Positions 19,711 to 55,739 of a stretch of DNA of 64,000 bases are shown piece after piece. This DNA comes from Chitinophaga alhagiae (GTDB lineage Bacteria > Bacteroidota > Bacteroidia > Chitinophagales > Chitinophagaceae), in NCBI RefSeq assembly GCF_003568665.1, contig NZ_QXMH01000001.1:744001-808000 (forward strand), read 5' to 3'. Made by a program: the position numbers and the translations under genes. Numbering within the stretch: position 1 is the stretch's first letter; each line of letters opens with the position of its first letter. The notes beneath the pieces are model-generated. The model was not told the DNA's origin. It ran no database searches and saw only the letters and a list, made by a program, of their open reading frames with translations.

Positions 19711-20847
19711 TTACACTACTGTGATATGTGCGTATGCGTAAGAGAACCTTGCACTCTCCGGCACCATCATCACAATGGTATCGCCTTTCTTCAGCAAGCC
19801 CTGGTTCAGCAGCTCTTCCAGCATGAAATATGGAGAAGCGGTGCCCACATTGCCCACGCGGGTGAGGTTGGTGAACCATTTTTCCTGCGGGATGTGTACG
19901 CCCAGCCTGGCAATTTCCTCATCTATCCGGAAGCGGAAGTATTCGGAAGAAAGGTGGGGCAGGAAGTAGGTGAGCTTGTCAATATCGATATTGTATTTTT
20001 CTACGAGGTCTTTCCACATCTGCGCGCCGGAAGGTACAATGTTCTTGCCCAGCAGGCGGGTGTCCTGCTTGAAGGAGAACACGCTGTTGGCGGCCCACTC
20101 TTCGGGGGTCATATCCGTCCAGCCCTTGGTGGAGCCGTCTTCATGCTTGATGGCGCCCGCGTACATGCAGGTATCCAGGTTATTGGCGTAAGAAGCGATC
20201 TCTACCCAGTCTACCCGGAGAGACAGCCCTTCTGCATTGGGTTTGTCTTCGAACAGGGCGGCGCTGGCGCCGTCTGAAAGCATCCATCTTAAAAAATCTT
20301 TTTCAAAGGCGATAATGGGGTTTTCCGCCAGTGATTTGAGGTTTTCCGTTTCCGGTTCAAACTTGCGGGACAGCATCCAGCTGGAGAATTTCTCCGAACC
20401 GGTGCTCACGGCGTTGCTGGTGTTGCCGCATTTAATAGACATGTAGGCGTACTTGAACGCCTGCATACCGGCCGCACAAGCCCCGGTGGCGGCAATCAGC
20501 TCCACGGGCTGGCATTTCAGCAGGCCGTGTACCATGGCGGCATGGTTGGGCAGCAGCTGGTCTGGCGAGGTGGTGCCGCAGGCCAGGAGCTGCAAACGTT
20601 CTATGGGAAGCTGGTTGTCAAACAACATTCTTACGGCTTCGGCAGTCATTTCAGCGTTGGTATGGGTAGAAGCACCCGTTTTATCCAGCGCGTAGTACCG
20701 GGTCTTGATCTTGTTATTTCCCAGGATCATATTGCGTGCCCGGGAAGGCTTGCCATCCACCATTCCGAGGATGCTTTCCATTTCATCGTTCCCTACTGGC
20801 TCATTCGGCAGAAATTTGGAGAGCCTCGTGATATATACTTCTTTCAT
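19711..20847 (-). CDS. darB: DarB-like 3-oxoacyl-ACP synthase III
   Basis: 378-residue KAS III-family enzyme. Cys124 lies in the active-site motif ATGACAAGM, the catalytic His in FLPHLSSEYF and the Asn in RVGNVGTASP. In dialkylresorcinol synthesis DarB condenses a fatty acyl thioester with an ACP-bound beta-keto chain, and DarA then aromatises the product (established for the dar pathway). Its partner darA lies directly upstream. The ATG overlaps (ATGA) the stop of a 16-codon frame carried by a tandem repeat. The start is supported by the usual MKEVYITRLSKFLPNEPV N-terminus. Confidence 0.92.
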   Translation of the reverse strand: MKEVYITRLSKFLPNEPVGNDEMESILGMVDGKPSRARNMILGNNKIKTRYYALDKTGASTHTNAEMTAEAVRMLFDNQLPIERLQLLACGTTSPDQLLPNHAAMVHGLLKCQPVELIAATGACAAGMQAFKYAYMSIKCGNTSNAVSTGSEKFSSWMLSRKFEPETENLKSLAENPIIAFEKDFLRWMLSDGASAALFEDKPNAEGLSLRVDWVEIASYANNLDTCMYAGAIKHEDGSTKGWTDMTPEEWAANSVFSFKQDTRLLGKNIVPSGAQMWKDLVEKYNIDIDKLTYFLPHLSSEYFRFRIDEEIARLGVHIPQEKWFTNLTRVGNVGTASPYFMLEELLNQGLLKKGDTIVMMVPESARFSYAYAHITVV

Positions 20848-20894
20848 CTGTTAATATTCGTCTTTTTATTGGTCAGATGGAACTTGCGTTTCAT
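20844..20894 (-). CDS. 16-codon frame coupled to darB (repeat copy 2)
   Basis: Reads MKRKFHLTNKKTNINR and its TGA overlaps the darB ATG as ATGA. It is carried by the second copy of the 47-bp repeat. Whether it is translated is unknown. It may control darB translation, or may simply result from duplication of the darB start region. Confidence 0.4.
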   Translation of the reverse strand: MKRKFHLTNKKTNINR

Positions 20895-20964
20895 TTGCAA
20901 TTGTTCGTCTTTTTATTGGTCAAATGGAACTTGCGTTTCATTTGCTGTAATTCGTCTTTTTATG
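20857..20964. repeat. 47-bp tandem repeat upstream of darB (two full copies and a partial third)
   Basis: Copies begin with TTCGTCTTTTTAT on the plus strand at 20857, 20904 and 20951, exactly 47 bp apart; the third breaks off after 13-14 bp. The two full copies differ at only a few positions, mostly at the end of the unit. In the darB direction each full copy contains ATGAAACGCAAG and encodes a 16-codon frame overlapping the next start by 4 nt, so the period equals 17 codons minus the ATGA overlap. The copies fill most of the darA-darB gap. Confidence 0.9.
20891..20941 (-). CDS. 16-codon frame coupled to the next repeat copy (repeat copy 1)
   Basis: Reads MKRKFHLTNKKTNNCK; its TGA overlaps the ATG of the second small frame as ATGA. 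Same caveats as the other copy. No Shine-Dalgarno sequence precedes it. Confidence 0.35.
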   Translation of the reverse strand: MKRKFHLTNKKTNNCK

Positions 20965-21117
20965 GCTTCTTTATCAGGCCAGATCATTGCTGGTGACAGT
21001 TTAAACGGCCGTAAATATAGAATTTTGCATGAATTATTTAACCCTGCGGCAAGGCAGTAACCTGAAAATAATACGCAACTACCGGCATTCCCTAACGGCA
21101 AATTTACGCAGAAAGTA

Positions 21118-22044
21118 TCATCCTTCCCGGAGTGAGATGCCTTTATAATAGGCCACATCCTCGTTCAGCTGTTTGCGCAGCAGCAGCAATTTCAACCAGG
21201 ATGCTACGGTGGTAAAGGGAGACAGGAAGGGGATGGCCAGCAGCAATATGACGCGGTACAGGGTAACGCGGCCCTGGCGCGCGGCATCTCCCGGCCCGCC
21301 CTTGGCGCTGATGAAATTGGCAAAAAAGCGGAACGGCTTTACACCGCGCATTTCCAGCACAATGAGGCCGGGTTTCATTTCCACGCTCCGGAGCGCCAGC
21401 AGCTGCCCATGCAGGCCGCTAAACGCTTTTTTCTCCAGCGCCTCCGCAATGGGAGCGGCAAAACGGGCAGCCCCCACAATATCTTTTTCCTGCACGCCGG
21501 CCGGGGGAAATATAAAGAACGCGTCTTTTTTCCCTTTGGTAGACCAGCGGAGGATGGTGATCAGCGATACCAGGTTGTGATGCGTATCCGCCAGGGCTAT
21601 ATGCCCTACCAGGTTGGCGCCCAGCTGGTGCAGGTACCTTTTCACCTTTTCCTGGGCGTTGATCCACATATTGCGGCAGCCCAGCAGGGTCACCACCGGC
21701 CGGCCTTTCAGCAGCCGGGCGGCTTCCGGGCTTTGCAGGAAAGCGGCCACCGGCTGGGAGGGGGAAAGGAACCAGGGCTGATAGGCCATGATCACCAGGT
21801 CAAAATGTTCGTCTGGGTTGACTTTCAGGGGTTTGATGGCCCTGGGCCGCGCCAGCACGGTTTCCGGCATGGCGTCAAAAAATTGCTGTTTCGGCCAGGG
21901 GAAAGGAAAGGGGCTCTCCGGCTCAAGTTGTTCATATACCACGGCGGCTTTGCCCTGCAGGGGAGCCAGCACGTTGTCAATGATCCTCTTCAGTTGGCCG
22001 GTTTGTGTGAAATAGACGACAAGTATCTTCGGTAGTTGACTCAT
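21118..22044 (-). CDS. darA: dialkylresorcinol condensing enzyme DarA
   Basis: 308-residue protein with a flavodoxin-like N-terminus (KILVVYFTQTGQLKRIID) and a C-terminal hydrophobic tail (VILLLAIPFLSPF) that may associate with the membrane. DarA cyclises and aromatises the DarB product into a dialkylresorcinol, one half of flexirubin-type pigments. The start at 22044 (MSQLPKILVV) puts the first beta strand at the N-terminus as expected. The gene ends 270 bp before darB, the gap being filled by the tandem repeat, and starts 59 bp after the GIN-domain gene. Confidence 0.9.
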   Translation of the reverse strand: MSQLPKILVVYFTQTGQLKRIIDNVLAPLQGKAAVVYEQLEPESPFPFPWPKQQFFDAMPETVLARPRAIKPLKVNPDEHFDLVIMAYQPWFLSPSQPVAAFLQSPEAARLLKGRPVVTLLGCRNMWINAQEKVKRYLHQLGANLVGHIALADTHHNLVSLITILRWSTKGKKDAFFIFPPAGVQEKDIVGAARFAAPIAEALEKKAFSGLHGQLLALRSVEMKPGLIVLEMRGVKPFRFFANFISAKGGPGDAARQGRVTLYRVILLLAIPFLSPFTTVASWLKLLLLRKQLNEDVAYYKGISLREG

Positions 22045-25957: not shown

Positions 25958-25987
25958 ACTATTTTACCTGCGTAGTTGGAGGCTTCT

Positions 25988-26020
25988 CCTTCGCTTCTCG
26001 TTCGCTTCACGTTCGCTTGA
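25988..26020. repeat. 11-bp tandem repeat, three copies
   Basis: CCTTCGCTTCT, CGTTCGCTTCA and CGTTCGCTTGA follow one another directly, with a partial copy (GGCTTCT) just before. They lie between two converging terminators. No gene is seen in this spacer. Confidence 0.8.
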
Positions 26021-54888: not shown

Positions 54889-55739
54889 TCTTTTCCCCAT
54901 ACCAACATAATGCCTGGTGTAATGCCCAGCAGTGAATGGTAACTGCCTGTAACCCCTATCTGCAGCCGCCCTGCCTTGAAAGCCGCGCCGGCAAACTGTG
55001 TGGCCGGCGCGGTGGAAAAGCCGGCCAGCAGCCATACTGCGCCTGTTGGCCGGTAGAGGCATTGCACTTTCATAAAGAGTGGCCAGTTGGCCTCCTTGCG
55101 CCATTCACCTTCCAGCCGCAACCCGGTAGAAGGCATATAGCTCAACCCGGCCGTATATACGCCATGGCGCCTGCCGGGCCCCCACAGGTGCAGGCTCAGC
55201 CCTGTTTCTTTTGTAAGCTGCCATACAAGCCCCAGTTCCGCGTCCATGCCGTACGTGCCGTAATCCAGAAATACGGCGGCCTGCAACCGGTTTCCCAGCG
55301 CCAATGCGTAACCCAGCCCCGCCAGTTGCTCCCGGTAAAGCGGAAAACCGAACTGCCACAATTTAACACCCACTACACCGGTTGCAACCGGCATACTTAA
55401 CGCTACCGCGTATACGCTTAACTCTTTTAGAAGGAACCCCCGCTCCGTGTACAACCCTGCCGAAAAATGCCGCAGGCCCGCCAGGGCGCCGGGGTTGCGG
55501 AATGCCTGCATCACCGGGGAAAAGCTGCCGGAAATGGCAGCGGGCGCAAGTTGTGTAACAGGTGCGGGTGCCTGTGCTGGCTGCATGGCAGCGGTAAAAA
55601 TGCCAGGAAAATGTTTCGCTGTTAAGAGACGGCCTTCTGCAATAACCGGGGAACAACCAACCGGGGAACAACCAACCGCGTAAACCCGCGGGTAATGCAT
55701 GCAGAGCTGCATGCCCAGTAAACAAACAATGATCTTCAT
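54885..55739 (-). CDS. predicted outer-membrane protein coupled to the HhH barrel protein
   Basis: 284 residues: signal peptide (about 1-21), a low-complexity Ala/Pro stretch (51-70), then amphipathic strands to the C-terminus, resembling PorV/PorQ-like or other small beta-barrels; I cannot name the family. NPGALAGLRHFSAGLY is reminiscent of the start of such barrels. A 12-bp duplication makes the near-terminal VGCSPVGCSP repeat. The stop overlaps the next start (ATGA), so the two proteins are probably made together and may form one complex. Confidence 0.7.
   Translation of the reverse strand: MKIIVCLLGMQLCMHYPRVYAVGCSPVGCSPVIAEGRLLTAKHFPGIFTAAMQPAQAPAPVTQLAPAAISGSFSPVMQAFRNPGALAGLRHFSAGLYTERGFLLKELSVYAVALSMPVATGVVGVKLWQFGFPLYREQLAGLGYALALGNRLQAAVFLDYGTYGMDAELGLVWQLTKETGLSLHLWGPGRRHGVYTAGLSYMPSTGLRLEGEWRKEANWPLFMKVQCLYRPTGAVWLLAGFSTAPATQFAGAAFKAGRLQIGVTGSYHSLLGITPGIMLVWGKE

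Follow-up and report, generated by a model that had tools for sequence, protein, structure and literature searches.

The question raised by this locus is what the short tandem repeats directly in front of darB are, and whether the small reading frames that they carry have a part in the expression of that gene. In the window, i.e. the whole stretch of 64,000 nucleotides of Chitinophaga alhagiae that was analysed, the minus-strand array before darB consists of two 47-bp units and a 19-nt fragment, and Tandem Repeats Finder reports it at 20856-20963 with a period of 47, 2.3 copies, 90% matches and a score of 181, in agreement with the coordinates given in an earlier note on this DNA. The earlier note had also named the genes on both sides. 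For darB the name is borne out by NCBIfam model NF053539 (613 bits); for the upstream gene at 21118-22044 the name darA is not confirmed, as neither an NCBIfam match (E <= 0.001) nor a Pfam match (E <= 1e-5) was found. A 38-base pattern of the repeat, searched with up to three mismatches, has two matches genome-wide, both in the darB array, and the repeat is not due to chance. Two other tandem repeats lie in the window, at 55644-55678 (15 bp x 2.3, 100%) and 25982-26018 (11 bp x 3.4, 92%). The parts of the darB locus, in window coordinates, are:

20945..20963, minus strand: partial linker of 19 nt at the outer end of the array (Tandem Repeats Finder and sequence reading)
20944-20898, minus strand: unit 1, 47 bp
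20921..20944, minus strand: hairpin of unit 1, CAA-ATG-A-AAC-GCAA-GTT-C-CAT-TTG, with a conserved A x C mismatch (sequence, fold and family pairing)
20898..20920, minus strand: A-rich linker of unit 1 (sequence; alignment A1)
20897-20851, minus strand: unit 2, 47 bp
20874..20897, minus strand: hairpin of unit 2 (sequence)
20851..20873, minus strand: A-rich linker of unit 2, which is the immediate darB leader (sequence)
20845..20850, minus strand: CAG and the start codon of darB, which shares its register with the repeat ATGs (sequence)
20891..20941, minus strand: small frame 1, 16 codons, MKRKFHLTNKKTNNCK followed by a stop, judged incidental (sequence; family unit counts)
20844..20894, minus strand: small frame 2, 16 codons, MKRKFHLTNKKTNINR followed by a stop, judged incidental (sequence; family unit counts)
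19711..20847, minus strand: darB, the host gene of the array, start at 20847 (NCBIfam NF053539)
21010..21019, minus strand: TATATTTACG, a putative promoter box beyond the outer end of the array (in 68 of 79 genus genomes the 420 nt ahead of darB hold a similar, TAnnTTTACG-like box, a count with no shuffled control)

Each repeat copy holds a palindrome around its own ATG (CAAATGAAACGCAAGTTCCATTTG in unit 1), a feature absent from the earlier note. The 3' arm of unit 2, CATCTG (20879-20874), complements CAGATG at the start of darB (20850-20845), and fits it better than its own 5' arm, CAAATG. Folded alone, the window array reaches a predicted energy of -23.1 versus a shuffled mean of -16.1 (z -2.34, with 2 of 200 shuffles as low), which is suggestive only.

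Both 16-codon frames do end in a stop codon that overlaps the next ATG as ATGA, the second at darB itself, and from this the earlier note had suggested a possible translation-coupling relay that sets the DarB level by repeat number; in such a relay ribosomes would move through the small frames into darB by termination and reinitiation at ATGA. The last darB unit of a related genome, G024, also ends in ATGA when read by eye. However, among 79 units from six genomes, kept only if ATGAA or ATGAG followed (one locus, L238, was skipped for lack of it), the overlap is present in five, two of which are those of the window, whereas 41 read Met-Lys-stop. Altogether 55 of the 79 frames stop before the next ATG, 15 are open past it and four have another fate; the unit period modulo 3 is 0, 1 or 2 in 29, 34 and 16 units, respectively. 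At darB itself the units of G008 and G055 do not chain, as both units of the former stop early and the single unit of the latter is open in frame into darB. Any tandem unit with ATGA in it chains automatically if its period is 2 modulo 3 and no in-frame stop comes earlier, and the overlap in the window thus follows from the 47-bp period. The chained frames are therefore weaker evidence than they appear; the repeat family is real and ordered, but the relay is not its conserved feature, the small frames look like a by-product, and I regard a relay into darB as very improbable. Small chained frames in such arrays should be read with caution, as they can arise from the repeat period. The erm-type leader-peptide attenuators also have short frames upstream and alternative pairings by which the start can be covered, and the present family is like them in both respects; it differs in that its upstream frame is not conserved, given the 41 of 79 units that stop after two codons.

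The earlier note had also offered slippage of the darB start region, i.e. a local duplication without a wider family. The unit does end in the darB start context, and many Chitinophaga without a recognisable hairpin have a similar, linker-like darB leader, e.g. TTAAAAGACGAATTATTTTCAA (loci L124, L132 and L140), which may be either what is left of an old unit or the ancestral form of the leader. However, clpX in the same genome is preceded by an identical hairpin core, ATGAAACGCAAGTTCCAT, and in G055 dozens of genes have related units ahead of them. Plain slippage is contradicted by these dispersed copies and is highly unlikely; what survives of the proposal is that the array probably grew by tandem duplication and that the unit holds a copy of the start context, and copy number is all that slippage can explain.

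A search of the window genome for the palindrome core gave 25 matches, versus 1 for a reversed-pattern control. Besides the clpX array (period 47-48), tandem arrays precede a gene for an AraC-type regulator (period 46) and one for an RND pump (period 49-52), and in all three the ATGAAA of the host gene is in register with the ATGs of the repeats. I propose that the darB repeats probably belong to a family of short, dispersed palindromes that are anchored at start codons and become the leaders of the genes behind them. The conserved unit begins with the hairpin NNN-ATG-A...C-CAT-N'N'N' and continues with an A-rich linker ending in NNN, which the host ATGAAA directly follows. Period or length ranges from 41 to 52 bp in the first set of 79 units; a longer version, of about 85 bp and with an extended hairpin, occurs at L448, L450, L452 and L454, in three tandem copies at the last of these, and may be closer to an active form.

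The pairing is supported by covariation. In alignment A1 (66 different units) 97.5% of the hairpin cells pair, with a covariation of 0.278 versus 0.115 in shuffled data, and the 3' arm pairs with the downstream start in 98.9% of cells (0.229 versus 0.081 shuffled). In the more diverse alignment A2 (73 units) hairpin pairing is 94.8% and covariation 0.306 versus 0.134; as for A1, the shuffles leave the relatedness of the units in place. When the partners are slid by one to three columns in A2, 19-40% of cells pair. Changes on both sides are seen in six of the nine pairs of this alignment, while ATG:CAT is nearly invariant (one U-G cell), a constancy that is partly due to the way in which the units were found.

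In order to compare the two partners of the 3' arm, I used 93 arrays, i.e. 42 gene-start clusters of G055 (see below) and 51 other loci judged to be in register; chosen in this way they are uninformative on register itself, and L317, L319, L322, L350, L367 and L462 were left out though in register. The arm finder rewards ATG, CAT and pairing with the own arm, and gives no reward for pairing with the gene start or for the A x C mismatch. In 79 arrays the triplet of the 3' arm is complementary to that at the gene start, and in 52 to its own 5' triplet; it fits the gene only in 30, its own arm only in 3, both in 49 and neither in 11. The discriminating arrays of the first set point the same way, with nine for the gene start versus three for the own 5' arm. 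The A x C mismatch is kept in 84 of the 93 arrays. Where the left triplet does not fit, the hairpin is longer (median 16 vs. 12, Mann-Whitney p = 0.002, uncorrected for relatedness), which fits an order in which fresh insertions would have a longer hairpin with the old leader at their left, and shortening and duplication would follow.

The location of the units with respect to genes was assessed with two models. Model R1 ends in ATGAAA, having been trained on such units, and is biased in this respect; model R2 was built without any gene start, although its core units had been picked because ATGAA or ATGAG followed. Because of this training bias, the 16 clusters of G055 that had no part in training are the fairest test. 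R2 finds at least 86 units in at least 48 clusters in G055, and in 42 of the 48 an ATG lying 0-8 nt past the last unit opens a reading frame of at least 45 amino acids, with no masked base in its first 45 codons; the hexamer at these starts is ATGAAA in 40, ATGAAT in one and ATGAAG in one. The untrained clusters pass in 15 of 16 cases. Control positions rarely do: nine shifts of 15 to 200 nt give 0-4 of 48, the other strand 2 of 48 and random positions 674 of 9600. At four of the misses (L204, L227, L270 and L273) the gene starts, by eye, after one more unit or the match has overrun; the other two are L373, which is off, and L446. In the window genome, G000, R2 finds at least 21 units in six clusters, five of which lie at gene starts by eye; at the exception, L359, the gene begins 22 nt further on.

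A hand-chosen, not random, set of 60 R1 loci from 13 genomes, in which L342, L343, L371 and L375 repeat training loci, is in register in 51 cases by script, and in 55 when four loci are added by eye (L317 and L367, in register after one more unit, and L322 and L350, with short reading frames of 51 and 76 amino acids). At L342, L359, L364, L368 and L373 the gene is out of register, its start being displaced by 14-72 nt or in a different frame. The hexamer alone does not account for the preference for start codons, as a crude count in the window gives 9 of 45 genes that begin with ATGAAA and 10 ATGAAA outside crude genes. Single or tandem units precede clpX, purQ, hisG, rplW, aroA, acpS and others. 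The starts of such hosts agree with protein models: NCBIfam models align from residue 1 in PurQ (of G055, G003 and G025), in L23 and in a sugar-nucleotide dehydrogenase; in HisG, ArgG, AcpS and ClpX they begin within residues 1-3. For TrpE, AroA and PssA the first aligned residue lies between 2 and 16, according to the model, which is in agreement but is weaker proof. The family is found at the start codons of many unrelated genes in Chitinophaga and some other Bacteroidia, apparently added unit by unit.

The rplW gene offers a comparison between sister species, each group of which is joined as sisters in a DarB tree. The gap preceding rplW measures 31 nt in G056 versus 79 and 82 in G025 and G027, 67 in G003 versus 116 in G006, and 66 in G000 versus 151 in G024, which has two units, an older decayed one outside a newer one. 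A difference of one unit amounts to 48-51 bp and lies exactly at the start codon. G056 reads agctataagat directly followed by ATGAAACTG, where G025 reads agctataatgat, then ATGAGATCG...AACAG, then ATGAAACTG. Single units are flanked by ATGA(AA) on either side, and the rplW site of G056 has one copy. This could be read as the target-site duplication of a classical MITE, but the upstream copy is also the hairpin arm. The rplW sites called empty in G003, G000, G008 and G055 may hold decayed older units, one of which was flagged by a regular expression in G055, and G056 has the cleanest empty site.

Whereas darB itself is present in all 79 genomes of the genus, units in front of it are seen in four, namely G000, G024, G008 and G055. 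These form two sister pairs in the DarB tree of the 30 closest sequences, which needs two changes, and a single origin of the darB units is compatible with such a tree. A transcript that begins between the repeats and darB is not the favoured case, as the putative promoter box lies outside the array at 21019-21010.

The existence of the family, its position at start codons, the covariation of its hairpin and the unit-sized length differences at rplW between sister species can be read from the sequences themselves; how a unit arrives and what it does would be as follows. A unit would be inserted at, or copied into, an ATGAAA start, which would leave ATGA(AA) on both sides. Arrays would then expand, through duplication in tandem or through further insertions, and their outer units would meanwhile decay. 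Once transcribed, the unit would belong to the 5' leader of the mRNA, where its hairpin may hide the extra AUG and its linker would become the initiation region of the host gene. Hiding of an AUG would matter in a phylum without Shine-Dalgarno pairing: PMC6847099 describes Bacteroidetes as having no Shine-Dalgarno motifs, with leader structure tuning translation and AUG under-represented near starts, and start selection in the phylum as thought to depend on unstructured, AUG-poor leaders. For the window, the two units and the fragment would form the darB leader, and the chained frames would follow from the 47-bp period. The predicted folds of the 93 arrays do not all point one way: the own hairpin beats pairing of the 3' arm with the gene start in 68 but is the weaker in 25, and the start codon of the gene is predicted to be unpaired with a mean probability of only 0.33. 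A cost or a regulatory role is thus possible, and hiding the extra AUG would not necessarily be harmless. The A at -3 that is favourable in F. johnsoniae is absent: this position is C in 89 of the 93 element-bearing starts, and also at darB in 62 of 79 genomes.

A regulatory role could take the form of a selected translational switch, in which the CCATN'N'N' arm would pair either with the upstream ATG arm (open) or with NNNATGAAA of the gene (closed), and the number of units or a bound factor would set expression. The 3' arm tracks the gene start over its own 5' arm (30 vs. 3 discriminating arrays, and 9 vs. 3 in the first set), as such a switch would have it, but matching triplets also arise by tandem duplication alone. 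Hosts are shared across species, with purQ in G055, G003 and G025 and rplW in G006, G024, G025 and G027, and units in several species at the same genes could mean selection rather than a wandering element. However, the hosts are otherwise unrelated (clpX, rplW, aroA, the AraC-type regulator, the RND pump), and orthologues in sister species are often without a unit; I consider the switch unlikely. Alternatively, the unit may act as DNA, either as a dyad operator for a regulator or as a structure in replication or supercoiling. The palindrome is indeed a dyad of ordinary operator size, but it keeps its place relative to the start codon and not relative to a promoter, some units stand in the narrow gaps between neighbouring genes (at rplW, and at L179, 11 nt past the end of a 353-codon frame), and the period varies from 41 to 52, all of which makes a DNA-level site hardly credible.

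An element anchored at start codons has partial likenesses elsewhere. According to PMC3733652, REP, BIME and REPIN sequences are short, dispersed, imperfect palindromes outside genes, single or clustered and with many copies in some genomes, and the family resembles them as dispersed palindromes outside coding sequence, single or tandem. Unlike REP/RAYT systems, the unit is fixed to start codons, has one orientation and carries a linker. The REP tag GTAG or CGTC at the foot of the stem (as defined in PMC3733652) is seen in neither A1 nor A2, where the foot consists of CNG, CTA and CAA-type triplets. The Y1_Tnp transposase (PF01797) has a match in 19 of 79 genus genomes, and in none of the seven with the most R1 matches, so that mobilisation of the RAYT/IS200 kind is rejected for these seven at the PF01797 level.

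BOX elements of Streptococcus pneumoniae are small and modular, have a part of about 45 bp that is repeated in tandem, and lie near genes; the family shares their small size, the length of the tandem part and the proximity to genes. No module like boxA or boxC was noticed on reading the units, and we know of no start-codon anchoring for BOX. Palindromic elements of Rickettsia are inserts inside reading frames whose host gene still works, whereas the present units stand in front of them. A MITE with a minisatellite in Porphyromonas gingivalis (PMC4596501) reportedly combines tandem repeats and a small mobile element in the same phylum. A CRISPR array is rejected, as the linkers within an array are alike and no unique spacers are present, and so is a known structured RNA, as a search of 16 loci against Rfam 15 gave three weak matches, all below the gathering score. 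Searches of open-licence PubMed Central that were aimed at the repeat brought up no paper which, judged by its title and the opening of its abstract, describes this family.

With R1 at E <= 0.01, the family is present in at least 37 of the 79 genus genomes, the richest being G055 (at least 71 matches), G023 (at least 55), G008 (at least 53), G024 (at least 40), G003 (at least 35), G000 (at least 34) and G006 (at least 28); single weak matches in poor genomes may be chance. In the Chitinophagaceae, at E <= 0.001, at least 61 of 294 genomes have matches. Nine loci from other genera were read, and six are in register by script and L408 by eye, while L409 opens only a 51-amino-acid frame (ATGAAT) and L415 fails. 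In a sample of the phylum, at E <= 1e-4, at least 15 of 395 genomes have matches; of these 15 one is the window genome, one belongs to a different class, and 13 represent other families within the class of the window genome. Five of nine loci taken from this sample are in register by script and L468 and L469 by eye; L471 is not, and L465 is left uncounted.

A family that ends exactly at the host start codon would represent either a mobile element with a new kind of target or a leader device in wide use. The fullest reading, which I offer tentatively and hold to be rather doubtful, is a miniature element present throughout the Bacteroidia that spreads only into start codons, its CCATN'N'N' arm acting as a guide complementary to NNNATGA, with ATGAAA left on both sides so that the host start is kept, and with tandem copy number tuning translation without Shine-Dalgarno pairing. 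The units alter the leaders of basic genes, those for ribosomal proteins included. Such genes carry units in several species and genera: rpmH at L322, L461 and L408 (a name that comes from a 22-residue match to TIGR01030 of 33 bits, below the whole-protein cut-off), rplW at L321, L346, L389 and L390, and a gene which we take to be rpmJ at L468 and L469. These repeated occurrences could reflect hot spots or function. Finally, G553, from another family in the class, has at least 14 matches, mostly of 65 nt and with near-identical scores (e.g. L472), which suggests an expansion of its own version of the unit.
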